Shown here: positions 6,650 to 13,710 of the stretch, piece by piece
How positions within the stretch are numbered: position 1 is the stretch's first letter
How the letters are laid out: each line of letters begins with the position of its first letter
Assembly: GCA_003818505.1 (NCBI GenBank)
Contig: RPRI01000031.1
Coordinates: 1-43,522, forward strand
Source of the DNA: Desulfobacteraceae bacterium
GTDB taxonomy: Bacteria > Desulfobacterota > Desulfobacteria > Desulfobacterales > RPRI01
Direction: 5' to 3'
DNA length: 43,522 nucleotides
Position numbers and translations under genes: made by a program
Notes under the pieces: generated by a model
What the model saw: the letters and a program-made list of their open reading frames with translations, nothing else
The model's database searches: none
Told to the model about the DNA's origin: nothing

Positions 6650-6875
6650 CTTTTCTAATTTGTGTCCATCCGTAAACCAAGTTCGGACACAGTTAACTTT
6701 CCGATTCGGAAATAAATAATTTTGGGCAAGCTCAAGGAAATCAAGGAATTGCGTGGAGACATACGCATAGTATGTCGCACAAGAAATCTCGCGGATTGAC
6801 AAAGAGATCTCTCAAAATGGGCATTTCCGGATGAAAACTAATTGATTCCGAAATAACGGAAAGGTATGGTGGGGG
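6650..6875. other. Structured noncoding stretch with several hairpins
   Basis: No credible gene lies here; the minus-strand ORF at 6741-7214 has no recognisable protein character. Several dyads are seen: GTGTCC with GGACAC (6662-6690), the palindrome TTTCCGA-T-TCGGAAA (6698-6712), and a 7-bp stem GACATAC/GTATGTC with loop GCATA (6758... flanked by GTG and CAC at 6753-6780). Together with the TTACC palindrome just upstream, it looks like an old mobile-element remnant or a structured RNA. I cannot decide between these. Confidence 0.4.
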
Positions 6876-6879
6876 AAAA

Positions 6880-7115
6880 GACGTGAGGCGGGAGGCGTGA
6901 GTCGTCAGAGCGGTATAAAGTGAAAAGTGAAACGTAAAAGGGATGAAAAATAGAATATCGGACATCGAATATCGAGGAACTGAACATCGAAGTGCGAAGT
7001 ACGAACTAAAATCAAAAACTGAAAGCCAAGACACAAGAAGCAAAGAGTCAAAGGCACAGAGGCACAAAGGGAAGAGAATGAAGGCGTGAGAGCGAAATGC
7101 GAGAAGGGAAGGGGT
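6880..7115 (+). repeat. Degenerate word-like repeat tract, block 1
   Basis: A purine-rich tract made of short, drifting words such as GAGGCGTGAG, TATCGGACATCGAATATCG, AAGTGAAAAGTGAAACG and GGCACAGAGGCACAAAG. Bases 6952-6974 match 21 of 23 positions of the reverse complement of 9303-9325. Bases 7049-7069 match 20 of 21 positions of the reverse complement of 10283-10303. It fills the space directly in front of the O-antigen ligase gene and seems noncoding. Confidence 0.7.
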
Positions 7116-7127
7116 AAGTTTTAGATA

Positions 7128-9287
7128 GTGAAAGCGGAAAAATCGGATAAAACGGCTTTTGTGATGCTGATGACGTCGCTTGTCATGAGCGTGATTCTTT
7201 TCGGGGCAGTTCATGCTTACACATACAGCTTCGTGTTTCTAATGATATTCACCGCATCGTTATTCCTTATTAATAAAAATATTATAAAAGACTTAAGAAC
7301 CGAGAAATATTCATACAGTCACTTAAAAACCGATCTCGATATTATTTTCTATCTGTTTCTCTCATACCTCCTGTTTCAGATAATACTGCTTCCCGAATTC
7401 ATCGTACGAGCGATCTCACCCGAAGCCCTTGCAGTCGGGAAAATGGCGCGTTCCCCTCTGCGCGCTTATGAGCAGGCAAAGAGCGCATGGTTTGCCCTCT
7501 CCCCGTATGCATATCCTGTTCGCCAGTCCTTTATCAGGATCGTTGCATACTGGCTGCTTTTCAGGTGTCTTGTTGAGACACTCAACACGAGAGCCCGCAT
7601 AAACACTGCCGTTGCGACCATTCTAATCCTGGGTTCTTTCGAGGCGTTGTACGGTCTTATCGAGACCTATTCAGGACATTCGCATATTTTATGGTTTAAA
7701 AGAATCGAGCACATAAAAGATCTTTCAGGTACCTACATAAACAGGAACCATTTTGCCGGCTTGATGGGAATTGGCCTTCTCCTTGCCACAGGCTTTGCAG
7801 GAGCGTTATCTGAAAAGAAAAAGAAGCGCAGCGGGATTAAATCGAACTGGGAAAAGAGCTTCAGGACAAGGCTTTCGGAATTGTTCTCGAAAGACCGCAA
7901 CTATGCAAAAAAGATCCTGGTCATAACATCCGCTATTGTCATGGGCCTCGGGCTTATCCTTTCCGCTTCAAGAGGAGGAATGATATCCGCATCAATTGCA
8001 ATGTTTTTCATGGGGATCATGTTTCTGTCCAAAAAAGAGCATCGCAGAAAAGGCTTTCTGCTTCTTACCATGTTCCTCGTCATATTCATCTATGCCTATA
8101 ATGTCGGCATAGATTATTCGTTAAAGAGGTTCGACCATATTTCAGGCGACTATGAGACAAGGAAAAGATACGCTCTGAAAACATTTGAGATATTTGAAGA
8201 TTATAGAATAACCGGCGCCGGAATAGGTAATTTTCAATATCTCTATCCGAGGTACCAGTCTTCCGAAGATAAAAAACAATATTTTATGTATGCTCATAAC
8301 GACTGGCTCCAGTTTGCCGCAGAAGCTGGAATCACAGGATTCGCCTTATTGGTTACGTGCATTTCCATTTATATCTATTTTACGATAAAACGCTGGAGTG
8401 CAAGAAGCAATTCGTATTCGATATGTCTCGGCGCAGTCCCTTTGGCCGTTCTTGCTGCTATGGGGATCCACTCATATTCAGATTTCAATCTTCATATACC
8501 GGCCAATTTCATGATGATGGTCTCAATCGCTGCAATCGGTTACAGCGCTCTGAATCTTGAAAAGCGATATCACAATGAAAAAATCCGGTACAAGTATATC
8601 AGCCTTGATCTTAATCGAAAAGGAAAGCTCCTGCTGCTTTTTTTTGCAGGATTCATACTCTGGTCAGGGATATATTCTTTCCGCCATCTGGTTGCAGAGT
8701 CATTGATCAATACAGTTCCCAATTCAACATTGAACAGAGAAAGGTATCCTTCGCCAGGAAAGATCAGCGCTGCGATAACATGGGACGGCGGGAACGCGGA
8801 ATACAGATTCAGGCTTGCCGAAAACCTGATTATCGCACGAAACAATGAACCGGATGATAAAATCAGAATTGAATATCTCGAAAAGATTATTGATGCCCTC
8901 GAGAATGCGGTACGCCTAAATCCCATGAATGCCGAGTATCATTTAAGGCTCGGCTGGGAATATAGCCATATGTGGGAAAAGCCCGACTACCATCAAAAGT
9001 GGATTCCAGCGGCGGATATTTACATGGAAAGGGCCGCATATTTTGCAGGAGAGAAGAATCCGAATCTCCATGTGGAACTTGGAAACTACTGGATCATGCG
9101 TTCAAAAACGGTTGATCCCTCAGCAAACCGTCTCTGTGATTCGGAATTCATCAGGGCCGGCTGGCATTATCAAAAGGCAATCGAGCTTGAACCGGCAGAT
9201 AAGAAATTGAAGGATAAAATAAGAAAATATATCTGGAATTTTTACCCTGATGAAGAATTTTTAAAAACAGTTATCAGTTACCGGTGA
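7128..9287 (+). CDS. O-antigen ligase / polymerase (Wzy_C family) with C-terminal TPR
   Basis: A 719-residue multi-spanning inner-membrane protein. About a dozen hydrophobic segments cover residues 8-525. The Wzy_C signature is seen as GTYINRNHFAG (about 201-211), SASRGG (279-284), GAGIGNF (363-369) and AHNDWLQFAAEAG (389-401). Residues about 580-700 are soluble and contain TPR-like helices (ALENAVRLNPMNAEYHLRLG). Members either polymerise undecaprenyl-linked repeat units (Wzy) or ligate the glycan to an acceptor (WaaL); sequence alone does not separate the two, but the TPR tail is common in exopolysaccharide polymerases or ligases. The start is a GTG at 7128 with a weak purine-rich site about 13 bases upstream. 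The last codons and the stop lie in repeat words (TTATCAGTTACCGGTGATC). Confidence 0.88.
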   Translation: MKAEKSDKTAFVMLMTSLVMSVILFGAVHAYTYSFVFLMIFTASLFLINKNIIKDLRTEKYSYSHLKTDLDIIFYLFLSYLLFQIILLPEFIVRAISPEALAVGKMARSPLRAYEQAKSAWFALSPYAYPVRQSFIRIVAYWLLFRCLVETLNTRARINTAVATILILGSFEALYGLIETYSGHSHILWFKRIEHIKDLSGTYINRNHFAGLMGIGLLLATGFAGALSEKKKKRSGIKSNWEKSFRTRLSELFSKDRNYAKKILVITSAIVMGLGLILSASRGGMISASIAMFFMGIMFLSKKEHRRKGFLLLTMFLVIFIYAYNVGIDYSLKRFDHISGDYETRKRYALKTFEIFEDYRITGAGIGNFQYLYPRYQSSEDKKQYFMYAHNDWLQFAAEAGITGFALLVTCISIYIYFTIKRWSARSNSYSICLGAVPLAVLAAMGIHSYSDFNLHIPANFMMMVSIAAIGYSALNLEKRYHNEKIRYKYISLDLNRKGKLLLLFFAGFILWSGIYSFRHLVAESLINTVPNSTLNRERYPSPGKISAAITWDGGNAEYRFRLAENLIIARNNEPDDKIRIEYLEKIIDALENAVRLNPMNAEYHLRLGWEYSHMWEKPDYHQKWIPAADIYMERAAYFAGEKNPNLHVELGNYWIMRSKTVDPSANRLCDSEFIRAGWHYQKAIELEPADKKLKDKIRKYIWNFYPDEEFLKTVISYR

Positions 9288-9360
9288 TCAGTTATCAGCC
9301 CACGATATTCGATGTGCGATATTCGAAGTCCGGCTGACGCCTCACGCCTTACGTCTCACG
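9265..9360 (-). repeat. Degenerate word-like repeat tract, block 2
   Basis: Between two convergent genes lie words such as CAGTTATCAG (twice), CGATATTCGATGTGCGATATTCG and CTCACGCCTTACGTCTCACG. Bases 9303-9325 match 21 of 23 positions of block 1 in inverted orientation. The tract supplies the last codons and stop of the ligase gene (plus strand) and the last five codons (VRRKA) and stop of the minus-strand gene ending at 9342. Confidence 0.65.
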
Positions 9361-10154
9361 ATTATTAAAATTGTTACTGCTATAAGAATGATTATGCAAA
9401 AAAGCGGATACCACTTAAAGAGAACAGGTTTTTCTTCGACTCCGGCCGTCCCTTCCGATTTTACGGAATAGATTATTCCATCCTTCTCATACCATGCAAC
9501 GGCAAGAATCTTTCCTCTCTGGTTGATTGATTTCTCCTTTTCAATCACAACGGTTTCTTCAACTTTACTATTTGGAGGAACTTTGGTTTGAATTAAGGCA
9601 TCTCCGGCTGTATATCCGTCAGAAAGGAAAAAGGCGATTACAGGAGAAAGAGGGCTGTTGCCTGAATTATTTATCGAAATCACCATTTTCTTTTTCGCTT
9701 CCATGAAAGCGCGCATATTGAAGAGAGGCGGTTTGAGTTCAAGGGAAAGCTCCGGCTTCTTATCCGTGTCTGATATTTTACATGGAAAAGGGAAATATTC
9801 AAAAATCCTGTGAGAGGTTCCGTTTTGCTCCTCGAAGCTAACTCTTGCAACGAGCATGTGCATGCCGGGTTTCAAACCGGGGATGCTTATGGTCTCATTA
9901 AATTTTAATATGCCGTCAGGGGGGTTATCGCCCAGATTGTCGAATTTCTGCGCCCAGTCTTCCATGAACAATGAAAGGGTTGCTCTATAAGCGGTTGAGT
10001 TTCCCATGTTTGCTATTTTTGCCTGTATGGCAATGTCGCTTTTTTTATTAACGGAGCAGGAGAGCTCGATTTTTGTGTTTATCACGCCTGCGTCGGCAAC
10101 GGATGGTGTCAGGAATAATGAAAACAGCAGGATATATTTTAAATGATGCCACAT
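9342..10154 (-). CDS. Membrane-anchored beta-sandwich protein of unknown function
   Basis: I do not recognise a named family. The 270-residue protein starts with a signal peptide (MWHHLKYILLFSLFLTPSVADA). Two beta-rich segments follow, about 27-130 and 137-235, with CARDB/NEW3-like phrases such as IQAKIANMGNSTAYRATLSLF and VISINNSGNSPLSP. It ends in one membrane helix (WYPLFCIIILIAVTILIIV) and a short basic tail, so it should be anchored in the inner membrane with its sandwiches in the periplasm. It is the last gene of the minus-strand operon, 63 bases after the GT-C gene. The final residues VRRKA come from repeat DNA. It may hold or present a substrate for the membrane glycosyltransferase (inference). 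Confidence 0.6.
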   Translation of the reverse strand: MWHHLKYILLFSLFLTPSVADAGVINTKIELSCSVNKKSDIAIQAKIANMGNSTAYRATLSLFMEDWAQKFDNLGDNPPDGILKFNETISIPGLKPGMHMLVARVSFEEQNGTSHRIFEYFPFPCKISDTDKKPELSLELKPPLFNMRAFMEAKKKMVISINNSGNSPLSPVIAFFLSDGYTAGDALIQTKVPPNSKVEETVVIEKEKSINQRGKILAVAWYEKDGIIYSVKSEGTAGVEEKPVLFKWYPLFCIIILIAVTILIIVRRKA

Positions 10155-10189
10155 ATATTATATTTCCAAATTTATTTCATATTCGTTAG

Positions 10190-10320
10190 TCGTAAGTCGT
10201 AAGTGGTGTATCTGGTTTCAGGTCCCCGGTTTATGGTCTTTGGTCTGGTGTTTCTGGTTTTTAGTTTCTGGTTTCTTTATGCCTTTGTGCCTCTGAGCCT
10301 TTGCCTCTTCATCTTTTAAC
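10190..10320 (-). repeat. Degenerate word-like repeat tract, block 3
   Basis: Read on the minus strand, the tract consists of words such as AGGCACAAAGGC, GAAACCAGAAACT, AAAGACCATAAACC and ACTTACGACTTACGAC. Bases 10283-10303 match 20 of 21 positions of 7049-7069 in inverted orientation. It spans the end of the GT-C glycosyltransferase gene and encodes the low-complexity C-terminus of that protein. Confidence 0.7.
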
Positions 10321-12020
10321 GAAATCTTATACAGCCCGTACTTGTGATCCTGTTCGCGCGCCGTCGCCACTTCGGTCAGGACATATTTTTCTTTTATGGC
10401 GTCACAGAGCCTTATGTTTCGTATATTTTTCGTGTTGCACCAGTAATTGTAATGAAAATATACATGTCCCTGGTATTTGCCGATGAGCTGTTTTATGAGT
10501 TCCGGCTCTTCAATGCCTGAATATGTCTGTATCGAATTTTGCCCCCATAGAAGAAACATGGCCGGATTCTGGCTTAAGACAATCGAGCGTTTAGGAATGT
10601 TTTGTATGAACTCCTTTGCGTATTTATGATCATACCTTGCGCCCCATGCTTCCTGGCCTTCACGATGCACCATGTTGAAAAAACGGACGGCTGAAAAGAG
10701 TATGAGAAAAACCATCAGAAAAATGCATGTGCTTCGGGGAGAAGGAATAAACGATTCGAGCCTTCTCCTGATCTCATCCGCTCCGGTTCCGGCCAGTATG
10801 GCAAGGGGGAGGAAGGTTAGAAGGGAAAAGCGCACATCAGCCCCGTAATGATAACTGCCGGCGTAAAAGAAGAGAAATATTCCGCAGAAAAGAATAAACC
10901 ATGTCATAAGGCATGCCTTCTGCCTGATGCTTTCTTTCGAAAAGATAAGTCCTGAAAAGGCAAGAGTGGTAAATACGGCCGGAAACTCTTTGTTGTTTAT
11001 ATAAAAAAGTCCGTTTACGGAAAAATTGTTTGAGAAAAAAGAGAGGGCAAACTTGCTTTCTTCAGCTCCCCATGAGTGGCCGCTGACAGCATACAGATGC
11101 ACAAGATGAGGAATGATAAGAACTCCTGCAAAGAGCAAATATGCCCAGAATTTTCTGTCGGCAAACAATCCCGGTGAAAAAAGAAGAATATATGCGGCAA
11201 GCACCGGTATTATGAGTCCGGATTCAGGCCTCATCTGGCATGAAAAGGGGAGTAGGGTCATGAGTAAAAAAAGATACGATGTTTTATAGGTTTTCAGATA
11301 AAGGATGAGCGCCAGAAACGATAATCCTGCAAAGAAAGCGGCTGCGGGCTCCGCAGCAATCGTGTTTCCCCACATCAGGTTCTGTGGAATAAGGCCGAAT
11401 ATAAGAGAGGAAAAAAAGGAGGCGTAAAAGTTGCCGGTCATGTGCCATGTTATAAGGTATGCAAGCATTACGGAGCCTGTGAAAAGAAAATTGTTCAGAA
11501 AGAAGGCATACAGTTCATTAACTCCGAATACCTGGAAAAGAAGGCTGATAAGATACGGCCACCCGCTCGGTTCCTTGTTGTATGAAAGGGAATGCGGATA
11601 ATATTCTTCATATTCGAATGTTCCGTAGTTGCACAGTCCGGTCTGGGTCTTAAGCGCTATGTTCTGGCCGATGTTGGCATATATGTCTTCATCATAATAA
11701 ATACGGTGATCCCGCGGAGCAAAAAAGGATGAGAGCATGAAGACTGCCGCAATGAATGCCGCGATCAATATTCCTTTCCTGTTCAGATAATTCTTAATAT
11801 GCTCCCTGATGGCAGGAAGGCAGAATATGAGGGCTGAGACAACAAGAAAGAAGTTGATATGAAGATTGACCGGAATCCATTTCATCAGGATGTTCTCAAG
11901 CCCGGTTTTGCTGTAGTAGTCTATAAAATAAAGCAGAATGCCGATAACAACAAGATGCCCCAGAAGGAGAAGAACCGGAAAGAACCGGTTGTCAAAGAAT
12001 TTACCGAGTCTTGTTTTCAA
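10218..12020 (-). CDS. GT-C membrane glycosyltransferase (PMT/ArnT-like, GT39 type)
   Basis: A protein of about 600 residues with some 11-12 membrane segments. After the first two or three helices comes RIYYDEDIYANIGQNIA (residue about 107), the acidic pair of the first periplasmic loop that binds metal and lipid-phosphate sugar in GT-C enzymes. CQMRPESG follows near 265. Such enzymes transfer a sugar from a polyprenyl phosphate donor to a glycan, lipid or protein in the periplasm; the DPM1-like GT2 at 15127-15816 in the same operon could make that donor. I chose the TTG at 12018-12020, which has GGAGG nine bases upstream; the ATG at 12053 has no ribosome site and would overlap the previous gene by 53 bases. 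The last 30 residues or so (EEAKAQRHKG onward, then K/Q/H/T-rich) are repeat-derived. Confidence 0.8.
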   Translation of the reverse strand: MKTRLGKFFDNRFFPVLLLLGHLVVIGILLYFIDYYSKTGLENILMKWIPVNLHINFFLVVSALIFCLPAIREHIKNYLNRKGILIAAFIAAVFMLSSFFAPRDHRIYYDEDIYANIGQNIALKTQTGLCNYGTFEYEEYYPHSLSYNKEPSGWPYLISLLFQVFGVNELYAFFLNNFLFTGSVMLAYLITWHMTGNFYASFFSSLIFGLIPQNLMWGNTIAAEPAAAFFAGLSFLALILYLKTYKTSYLFLLMTLLPFSCQMRPESGLIIPVLAAYILLFSPGLFADRKFWAYLLFAGVLIIPHLVHLYAVSGHSWGAEESKFALSFFSNNFSVNGLFYINNKEFPAVFTTLAFSGLIFSKESIRQKACLMTWFILFCGIFLFFYAGSYHYGADVRFSLLTFLPLAILAGTGADEIRRRLESFIPSPRSTCIFLMVFLILFSAVRFFNMVHREGQEAWGARYDHKYAKEFIQNIPKRSIVLSQNPAMFLLWGQNSIQTYSGIEEPELIKQLIGKYQGHVYFHYNYWCNTKNIRNIRLCDAIKEKYVLTEVATAREQDHKYGLYKISLKDEEAKAQRHKGIKKPETKNQKHQTKDHKPGT

Positions 12021-13710
12021 CCAGGAAATCCTCCATGAAAAGATAGCGGGCATCGGTTCTGTAGAATGTGTCGAGGGCGTCGCCGGGGGAGCAGACCACC
12101 GGATCTCCGTGTATATTGAAACTTGTGTTCAATACGACGCCGTAGCCAGTTTTCATTTTTATGTGACCGAGCAGCTCCCTGTACCTCGGATTTTCATCAC
12201 CAACAAAATGCGGCCTGCATGTGCCGTCTAAGTTCACAACCCCCTCCATTGCCTTAATCCGGTCATGCCTCACTGAATAGGCCATTGTCATATAGGGATT
12301 GTTGTCGGTGCCAAGTTTTTCAGTGCAAAGCAGTTCTTTTGCGTCTTCGGCAAGCATGCTCGGACAGAAAGGCTGATACCATACTCTTTTCTTAAGAGCA
12401 AGGTTGAGCCTGTCTTTCAGTCTCCTGTCATCAGCGCGGGCAAGTATGCTTCTGTTTCCAAGAGCTCTCGGACCGGCCTCCATGCGTCCCTGGAACCAGA
12501 GGATGATCTCGTTATTTAATATAAGATCCGCCGCCTTTTTTGCGGGATTACTTATTTTTTCAAAAGAGGCTTTCTCCCTTATAAGGCAGTCAAGGATCTC
12601 CTTTTCGGAATATCCTGGTCCGAGATAAAGATCGGAAAGCCCGCAGTTTGATATCCCTGATTTATGGTAATTTGCTTCAAGAGCGGCGCCTATTGCAAGA
12701 CCGCCGTCTCCCATGTGAGGAAAGACGCTGACCTTTTCGACTTCAGGAAGTTCGCCGAGTCTCTTGTTGAGCTTGATATTTGAGAAAAGGCCTCCTGCCA
12801 GGGCAAGCCTTTTCATTCCTGTTTGCGCCACGGCATTTTGTACAAGTTCCGCAGTTATTTTTTCAACCGTCCTCTGAGCCATGCAGGCAAACTGTTCCGG
12901 AGGATATCTCCAGAAGATTTTCTTCATCTCTTTAAACATACCGGTTGAGCTGTAACCGGAAACGAATGAGAGACCGTCGCATTTTATCATGATTAAAAGA
13001 GGATTCGCCGAATCATCGACAGGGAAGGCATAGTTTGCGAGCGCCATGACCTTTCCCTCGTCTTCGAGTTCCCGCATGTTGAGGAGATTGGTTACATGCT
13101 CGAAAAATACGCCCATCGAGACTTTTGCCGGGATCTTATTAACAGGCCTGAGTCTGCCGTTGCGGTATATCCATACAGATCCCGAAAGGCCGTCTCCCAA
13201 TCCGTCTAATGTTATGACAAGGCATTCGTCAAAACCGCTGCACCGTGCCGCCGTATTTGCATGGCATAAATGATGATCCGGCAGGTGAAGATTGTAGTTG
13301 CAAAATCCCATTTCAGATAGTTTTTTGTCAAAATAAAGCCTGCTCAAATATCTGGAAATAGAATTCGGACCGTACTCGGTAAATCTGTATTTAAACCTTT
13401 TTTTAAGTCCGTCGAAACGCCCCGGCCCTTTCTTTCTGCGCCGTATGAGATAATATTCTTCCTTTAATGACGGAAATATTCTCGTGAGAGTTTTGGCGGT
13501 GTCCGCTGTTGATGCCGCTATTTCGGTAATATCGGAAGGTGCTATTCCGGCGTAAGCGAGACAGGCCTTTATTGAAAGAAGGGGGAATCCGGCCTCCAGT
13601 TTACGTCTCGTAAGCCTTTCCTCGTTTACGGCAAAAGGAATGCTCTCTCCCGCAACAAGGGCAGCGCCTGCATCATGACCGTCCCAGATTCCAAGGATGT
13701 AGTTTCTCAT
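12001..13710 (-). CDS. Carbamoyltransferase (NodU/CmcH/TobZ family)
   Basis: A full-length 569-residue member. The N-terminal domain opens with YILGIWDGHDAGAALV, continues with NEERLTRRK and the metal/carbamoyl-binding DHHLCHA (145-151), and contains ITLDGLGDG. The ATP-grasping part has LAGGLFSNIKLN and GDGGLAIGAAL. The C-terminal domain carries EAGPRALGNRSILA and WYQPFCPSML. The family makes carbamoyl-AMP from carbamoyl phosphate and ATP and moves the carbamoyl group to a hydroxyl of a sugar or antibiotic (known). The start overlaps the stop of the radical SAM gene as ATGA, and its own end overlaps the GT-C start, so it is translationally coupled within the operon. A role in decorating the surface glycan with O-carbamoyl groups is inferred. 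Confidence 0.9.
   Translation of the reverse strand: MRNYILGIWDGHDAGAALVAGESIPFAVNEERLTRRKLEAGFPLLSIKACLAYAGIAPSDITEIAASTADTAKTLTRIFPSLKEEYYLIRRRKKGPGRFDGLKKRFKYRFTEYGPNSISRYLSRLYFDKKLSEMGFCNYNLHLPDHHLCHANTAARCSGFDECLVITLDGLGDGLSGSVWIYRNGRLRPVNKIPAKVSMGVFFEHVTNLLNMRELEDEGKVMALANYAFPVDDSANPLLIMIKCDGLSFVSGYSSTGMFKEMKKIFWRYPPEQFACMAQRTVEKITAELVQNAVAQTGMKRLALAGGLFSNIKLNKRLGELPEVEKVSVFPHMGDGGLAIGAALEANYHKSGISNCGLSDLYLGPGYSEKEILDCLIREKASFEKISNPAKKAADLILNNEIILWFQGRMEAGPRALGNRSILARADDRRLKDRLNLALKKRVWYQPFCPSMLAEDAKELLCTEKLGTDNNPYMTMAYSVRHDRIKAMEGVVNLDGTCRPHFVGDENPRYRELLGHIKMKTGYGVVLNTSFNIHGDPVVCSPGDALDTFYRTDARYLFMEDFLVENKTR

Follow-up and report, generated by a model that had tools for sequence, protein, structure and literature searches.

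Three genes in the window (the whole stretch of 43,522 nucleotides analysed here, from a Desulfobacteraceae bacterium) take their last codons from tracts of short related words, which raises the question of where such words come from and how they reach the ends of genes. The three tracts are made of degenerate words of 7-8 nt each. Tract 1 (6880-7115, forward strand) is, by local alignment and sequence reading, a mosaic of words in a single orientation, with W8 at 6882-6908, W6 at about 6917-6938, W2 at 6953-6977 and W1 at 7043-7070. Tract 2 (9265-9360, reverse strand) is in sense with a CARDB-like gene and holds W4/W9 at about 9268-9300, W2 at 9300-9332 and W8 at 9334-9360; its segment CAGTTATCAGTTACC includes the reverse complement of TAACTGA plus variants. 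Tract 3 (10186-10320, reverse strand) carries W1 (10275-10309) and W5 (about 10213-10277) in sense with a GT-C gene, whereas its distal W7 word, TTAGTCGTAAGTCGTAAG (10186-10205), runs opposite to the rest. This corrects the single orientation given to tract 3 in a preliminary description of the locus, which had also counted tract 1 among the tracts at gene 3' ends, whereas it sits in a divergent spacer, 5' of the ligase start. The inverted matches of tracts 2 and 3 to tract 1 are present as first described: 7043-7070 matches 10282-10309 of tract 3 (28 nt, 93%), and 6953-6977 and 6882-6908 match 9300-9324 (25 nt, 92%) and 9334-9360 (27 nt, 85%) of tract 2. The inverted local scores against tract 1 are 21 for tract 2 and 25 for tract 3, versus 11 in direct orientation, and no dinucleotide shuffle out of 1000 reached them, nor did any of about 795 other segments of the window.

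The genes concerned encode an O-antigen ligase-like protein (Wzy_C, PF04932; 7128-9287, forward strand), a beta-sandwich protein (9342-10154, reverse strand) called CARDB-like on a match that falls under Pfam's cut-off, and a GT-C/PMT_2 glycosyltransferase (10218-12053, reverse strand). The ORFs and the comparison with orthologues confirm that the words supply the ends of all three. The last codons and stops of the first two lie within tract 2, from which come the terminal VISYR-stop of the ligase (...EEFLKTVISYR) and VRRKA-stop of the CARDB-like protein (...TILIIVRRKA), and about 30 word-encoded residues form the K/Q/H/T-rich C-terminal tail of the GT-C enzyme. Between relatives, the C-termini diverge exactly at word onset. 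The GT-C protein ends in ...LYKISLKDEEAKAQRHKGIKKPETKNQKHQTKDHKPGT here, in ...LYKISIKDEGIKAQRHKETRN in the relative G001 and in ...LYRISLKGEKP in the sister genome G008; in outgroups without the words it ends in ...LYRMSFR (G013) or ...LYKMSLKE (G029). The ligase, which within the genus has an orthologue in G008 alone, ends there in ...EEFVKRVIGEGEKT, and the orthologue of the CARDB-like protein ends in ...TILITIRRKTEET. No orthologue carried the same C-terminal residues without the repeats. The words do make new C-termini, as first proposed, and they do so as a side effect.

The spacers themselves also differ between relatives. At the place of tract 3, G001 shares the tract but differs by whole units, and G008 has W8/W7 words, a gene of the S23/IVP family (four-helix bundle) and an inverted W7 arm. 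In G008, the spacer of tract 2 is instead an inverted W8 hairpin that lacks an IVP gene, and both the ligase and the CARDB-like protein have different C-termini. A spacer orthologous to tract 1 was not found, the DNA 5' of the ligase in G008 being unrelated, and the window itself holds neither an IVP gene nor a fragment of one.

The relatedness of the words noticed at first is real, and its extent is far larger than was reported. With up to three mismatches, AAAGGCACAGAGGCACAAAGG has 37 matches genome-wide and its reversed control none. In the 0.84 Mb of the genome covered by the statistics, which were complemented by targeted searches, 11 word families give about 190 matches, and the reversed controls of the main families give zero. 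By the crude ORF calls on which the spacer and gene-end statistics rest, words are densest in spacers between co-directional genes (1.78/kb), sparser in convergent spacers (1.05) and sparsest in divergent ones (0.48); words of the nonpalindromic families are in sense rather than antisense to the upstream gene (63:15, p=4e-8), and over half of the 31 genic matches are no more than 70 nt from the 3' end of the gene. The expectation of many copies concentrated at 3' ends is thereby borne out, but not that of a process specifically appending words to gene ends. A de novo search for enriched 10-mers returned mainly other dispersed repeat families of this genome. One exact 21-mer recurs in at least 115 genome stretches of many phyla (chance, about 0.1).

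S23/IVP genes accompany the words. Matches to PF05635 above the curated cut-off occur in this genome and in 24 of 28 other word-bearing genomes, and the IVP protein has a solved relative, 2gsc (E 4e-23). The published S23p structure is reportedly a homopentameric ring; we know of no function for the family. Matching inverted word arrays, defined by an inverted score above the 95th percentile of mismatched pairs, stand on both sides of 99 of 121 IVP genes; the copies sampled were mainly top-scoring ones, and the resulting 82% therefore holds for well-preserved copies. The median score of the arms is 22 inverted and 11 direct (Wilcoxon p=5e-13), and ordinary genes of this genome have inverted arrays in 10 of 654 cases (2 of 195 small control genes plus 8 of 459). 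The arm period is 7, 8 or 14 in 75 of 82 arms. Among the sampled copies, none was cognate to W4 or W5, and none of the 121 was armed with TAACTGA. The arms were also considered as selected RNA stems, which was rejected: G-U is not above A-C among inter-arm transition mismatches (189 vs 209), so there is no sign of selection for pairing as RNA. The IVP gene is in sense with the upstream ORF in 92 of 102 cases, at a median of 73 nt past its stop. An ORF lies up- or downstream within 350 nt in 116 of 121 (on plasmids, the neighbours are annotated); the examined copies sit between protein genes and not inside a 23S rRNA helix.

Word family and branch of the IVP family also go together. At the cross-phylum loci with the W1 21-mer, IVP was present at 11, in 10 of them within about 210 nt and in 10 with the words pointing at it. 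IVP occurs in 32 of 34 genomes with at least three W1 words and in 70 of 113 others (p=2e-4). When word families are mapped on the IVP tree, W1 needs 2 changes (13.8 when shuffled), W3 needs 1 and W10 needs 1 with 100/99 support, and all word groups together need 12 versus 29.9, a value as low in none of 200 shuffles. The tree tracks the word family across phyla; therefore, word and gene travel together.

Where related plasmids differ by the block, a words-IVP-words unit has been inserted at a stop/start junction, and the IVP ORF is the only ORF in it. The occupied and empty sites are L346 versus L353/L354 and L359 versus L346/L353 in Nostoc, Calothrix versus Tolypothrix/N. carneum, and Picosynechococcus 7003 versus 7002, in which the empty site is cas10-cmr3; no words were found in the empty sites of these four loci. 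In the Desulfobacteraceae genome, W3 elements are multicopy and dispersed, with identical, sharp, hairpin-bearing ends and unrelated flanks. A DNA search with the W2 element returned mostly paralogous flank genes, together with a copy relocated in G007. W1 arms occur as pairs without the gene (L018/L021). Candidate target duplications are TTCTA at L359, ATG-like at L346 and TTCATTTA at L209, with none clear at L208, L345 and L347, and no duplication of constant length was found in the elements compared. There is no transposase within the element. A terminal sequence common to all elements was rejected, as W3 ends are GGATCATCT.../...GAGAAGAAC and the others differ; some W1/W10 copies end in GTAACTA(C/T)TCAGG, and other elements show words alone. 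Searches of the genome for RTs and Y1 transposases gave no clear positional link; of its four RVT_1 matches, one alone is on the same contig as IVP fragments, from which it is about 3 kb away.

The tracts probably stem from small mobile elements that carry one S23/IVP gene, being their arms and decayed leftovers, an explanation that draws on matched inverted arms, word/gene co-inheritance, occupied and empty sites, multicopy sharp ends and altered C-termini. Such an element would span about 450-650 bp, with tandem words of 7-8 nt, the IVP gene and the same words inverted, and would insert immediately after a stop codon, between one gene and the next, in most cases in sense. Its first words would often turn into the last codons and stop of the upstream gene, and the altered C-termini would be a by-product of where the element lands. 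Each IVP clade would have its own word, the pair moving between phyla, and the IVP protein may recognise the cognate words and take part in mobility. After loss of the gene, and usually of one arm too, the words would remain, slippage would add or remove entire units, and mosaics would accumulate at preferred sites. The window's own tracts would be such remnants: tract 1 may be a stack of arm remnants that lacks an IVP gene, and the W7 word of tract 3 a surviving distal arm. The model does not directly predict mosaics of one orientation, of which tract 1 is an example, and this counts against it. So do the absence of IVP from the window, the more than tenfold excess of solo words over IVP genes, the lack of a cognate IVP for W4 and W5 in the sample, the missing sign of selection for RNA pairing, and an element with no transposase and no target duplication of constant length.

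An improbable alternative is that the words arose first by another process and that IVP genes then landed in pre-existing word hairpins, as 23S rRNA IVSs replace helix loops. Solo words do greatly outnumber IVP genes (by more than 10:1), and inverted word pairs without IVP occur (e.g., L352), but decay can give the same picture, as in the arms-only copy L049:9977-10162, from which IVP was deleted. Moreover, across phyla the word family goes with the IVP clade and not with the local vocabulary of the host, and the four empty sites are free of words.

Still less probable are microsatellite-like repeats that slippage during replication created and spread locally near gene ends, without any element and with an incidental link to IVP. 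Slippage does act, because tract 3 differs between this genome and G001 by whole units and degenerate units are mixed, and a preference for 7-mers is known in bacteria (PMC4679880). As the sole cause it is contradicted by the same 21-mer across many phyla, by the matched inverted arms that IVP genes have and other genes lack, by the co-inheritance of word and IVP and by the block insertions; it remains as a secondary process. The idea closest to the preliminary description, that words are appended to transcribed gene ends, for instance by addition to mRNA 3' ends, either untemplated or through reverse transcription, is very unlikely. The strong sense-strand and 3'-end bias that speaks for it follows from IVP elements inserted in sense behind stops; the single-orientation mosaics in tract 1 would fit it, but antisense distal arms exist, the elements lack an RT and the genome's few RTs have no positional link. 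Least probable of all are regulatory sites under selection (translation, transcript stability or binding of a global regulator), a role suggested in the literature for TAACTGA repeats (PMC4679880) and Geobacter metallireducens paired repeats (PMC2700814) and in keeping with the recurrent place near gene borders, since the words follow stop codons, vary from one orthologous spacer to another inside a single genus, mix several families in one tract and are depleted in divergent spacers, where promoters lie; single sites may have been co-opted.

The word-armed IVP element resembles several known systems. The 23S rRNA IVSs, earlier proposed as selfish or transposition-derived (PMC4990558), share with it the PF05635 ORF, a unit of a few hundred bp and terminal inverted repeats, and that of Coxiella burnetii has tandem heptamers (GACAGAT) directly before the S23p ORF (PMC4990558). 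In contrast, the elements described here are multicopy within a genome and occupy stop/start junctions separating protein genes; they have long degenerate word arms matching the IVP clade and leave solo arms behind. The published IVS appears to be an element of this kind at a different location. TAACTGA heptamers of Beggiatoaceae, Cyanobacteria and Bacteroidetes, for which horizontal spread was suspected with no evident mechanism, are tandem intergenic 7-mers that can overlap gene ends and supply stop codons, but they were read as one regulatory word and not tied to an IVP gene (PMC4679880). Cyanobacterial STRRs, 7 bp repeats capable of forming hairpins, were described only as repeats of unknown function (PMC2670836); STRR-type words (GGGAACAGGGAACAG, GTAGGGAGTAGGG) flank IVP genes on Nostoc plasmids. 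Tandem 7-mers (period 7, 8 or 14 nt) that are intergenic and present in many copies, a feature of TAACTGA/STRR-type repeats, occur here. The 'global regulator sites' of G. metallireducens, 3-5 tandem 7-8-mers in opposite-strand pairs at variable distance, have by their description the architecture of two arms, but were interpreted as IHF/HU-type binding sites with no link to IVP (PMC2700814). MITEs and REP/RAYT are likewise small and multicopy with inverted ends, as are the W3 copies with their sharp hairpin-bearing ends, but in the elements here a conserved and mostly intact ORF lies between degenerate arms of tandem words, and no target duplication of constant length emerged from those compared. 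Avd is a four-helix-bundle accessory protein of diversity-generating retroelements, which IVP may resemble in fold; unlike there, no RT is adjacent in the inserted blocks. A search of mostly open-access literature found no paper that connects IVP genes with intergenic word repeats, which is weak evidence of absence.

Several unexplained families of short bacterial repeats may thus share one cause, the word-armed IVP element. More tentatively, these could be pan-bacterial minimal selfish elements, in which a pentameric four-helix-bundle protein and cognate 7-8 nt arrays would suffice, with host enzymes, for mobility, the protein reading the words as a ring reads repeated sites; STRR, TAACTGA, the Geobacter paired sites and the rRNA IVSs would then all be its remains. 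The short dispersed repeats of cyanobacteria, Geobacter, Beggiatoa and uncultured phyla, described over several decades, would gain one testable origin, and the S23/IVP family a context outside rRNA. A selfish element would be seen remodelling protein C-termini and operon spacers, and with word and protein clade so closely paired across phyla, a recognition code would be directly testable.

The tracts at 6880..7115 (+), 9265..9360 (-) and 10186..10320 (-) consist of several families of degenerate 7-8 nt words. Tract 1, a mosaic of words in a single orientation, aligns with tracts 2 and 3 as inverted matches of 25-28 nt (85-93%), far better than shuffled sequences or other parts of the window do; the three tracts of the preliminary description are real. 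The families are W1 (AAAGGCACAGAGGCAC), W2 (GAATATCGAACATCG), W3 (GGGTTCAAGGATTCAAG), W4/W9 (CAGTTATCAG / CAGGGATCAG), W5 (AACCAGAAACCATAAACC), W6 (GTGAAAAGTGAAA), W7 (AAGTCGTAAGTCG), W8 (GGCGTGAGGCGTGAG) and W10 (TCAGGAGTCAGAAGTC). About 190 word matches were found in the 0.84 Mb searched of the window's genome (G000), where reversed-pattern controls for the main families gave zero. Word density is highest in co-directional spacers and depleted in divergent ones; with near-palindromic families left out, words share the direction of the upstream gene by 63:15, and those within ORFs cluster toward the 3' end. Adjoining tract 1, positions 6722-6738 carry TTTTGGGCAAGCTCAAG, a member of a different dispersed repeat family over-represented in G000. 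Palindromes also occur within or next to word tracts, REP-like GTCATTCCCGCGAAAGCGGGAATCC in stretches L011 and L023 and GTCCGCCA...TGGCGGA in L008, L012 and L019.

A connection of the words with S23/IVP genes was first suggested by the sister genome G008, in which such a gene (PF05635, 23S_rRNA_IVP, four-helix bundle) occupies the tract 3 site, flanked by W8/W7 words in inverted orientation; G000 and the related G001 have words only. The 25 PF05635 matches of G000 fall at about 20 loci, and most well-preserved genes carry a single word family on both sides, mutually inverted. When the two flanks of each copy were aligned together in many genomes, including complete cyanobacterial plasmids, the inverted match exceeded the 95th percentile of mismatched pairs in 99 of 121 distinct copies (82%, which holds for well-preserved copies because the sample was mostly top-scoring matches). 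Among ordinary G000 genes, 2/195 small and 8/459 larger ones passed this threshold. The word varies between copies, but both arms of one copy agree, with a period of 7, 8 or 14 in 75 of 82 arms. Selection for an RNA stem was not seen in the arms of the 121 copies, and W4 and W5 had no cognate IVP among those sampled. Solo words are more than ten times as numerous as IVP genes. Within 9 kb of a single G000 contig (C129:5669-14662), a W1 word is accompanied by two degraded pieces of IVP and by an RVT_1 reverse transcriptase (8656-9318).

The vocabulary is not local to G000. Among species-representative genomes, at least 115 stretches contain the exact W1 21-mer AAAGGCACAGAGGCACAAAGG (chance expectation ~0.1), the matches listed including Bacteroidota, Bacillota, Nitrospirota, Planctomycetota, Verrucomicrobiota, Omnitrophota, Actinomycetota, Zetaproteobacteria, Armatimonadota and others. 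Eleven of the cross-phylum loci with this 21-mer hold an IVP gene, within ~210 nt of the word in 10 and with the word oriented toward it in 10 of the 11. IVP is present in 32/34 genomes with at least three W1 words versus 70/113 others. On the IVP protein tree, word families are strongly clustered (12 changes for all groups versus 29.9 shuffled, although near-copies inflate the clustering and the protein is short): W1 changes twice over 16 rows, and W3 and W10 once each. The W10 branch has support of 100/99, and in the W1 clade the G000 copy stands among those of Bacillota, Nitrospirota, Verrucomicrobiota and Planctomycetota. This match of word to clade and the published pentameric ring of the family (PMC4990558) suggest that the protein reads its words; its closest solved relative is PDB 2gsc.

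Occupied and empty sites can be compared directly. In Nostoc ATCC 53789 pNsp_c, a words-IVP-words block splits a TAATG stop-start overlap that is unsplit in two Nostoc C052 plasmids. At a second site, on pNsp_a, the empty form is TTCTAGGTTATG and the occupied block has TTCTA at each end. The block alters the last codons and stop of the upstream gene in Calothrix NIES-22, compared with Tolypothrix and N. carneum, and in Picosynechococcus 7003, compared with Picosynechococcus 7002. Words were absent from the empty sites compared at these Nostoc, Calothrix and Picosynechococcus loci. Overall, 92 of 102 IVP genes run in sense with the ORF upstream, the median distance past its stop being 73 nt.

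The new C-termini proposed from the window were borne out, as orthologues of the ligase (7128..9287, +), CARDB-like (9342..10154, -) and GT-C/PMT_2 (10218..12053, -) genes diverge where words begin. Word-free GT-C orthologues terminate at LYRMSFR* or LYKMSLKE*, whereas those with words bear differing extensions; the ligase and CARDB-like C-termini change at the word start. Insertion and decay of the element are the likely cause. W3 elements with identical ends occupy many G000 sites whose flanks are unrelated, and in genome G007 the W2 element of G000 has a different location. Decayed forms include arms around an internally deleted IVP (L049:9977-10162) and arms only (L352, L018, L021). Slippage reshapes old words, because tract 3 of G000 and G001 differs by whole units. 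At L018:1352-1545 and L021:1350-1545, the two 193-195 bp hairpin units, MITE-like derivatives with W1 arms and GTAACTAC(T/C)CAG-type ends, share a non-IVP interior at unrelated sites. In the G000 genome, Y1 transposases (IS200/RAYT-type) gave nineteen matches, of which several contain stops; such enzymes could move hairpin-ended repeats in trans.

The Coxiella 23S rRNA IVS, with terminal inverted repeats and tandem heptamers preceding an ORF of the same family (PMC4990558), fits this architecture, with rRNA as its location. Intergenic copies do not lie in rRNA and are best called a free-living variant. An IVP gene does not feature in the descriptions of TAACTGA repeats (PMC4679880), cyanobacterial STRRs (PMC2670836) and Geobacter paired repeats (PMC2700814).

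In the cyanobacterial plasmid stretches L339, L341 and L347, IVP genes lie within cas operons, at type I-D cas6/cas4 and type III-B CRISPR cas10/cmr3, and related plasmids carry these operons empty. In Nostoc C052, C057 and ATCC 53789 (L350-L361), the same operon occurs on several plasmids per strain, with the block at differing junctions or absent, and this plasmid series is ready-made material on insertion.
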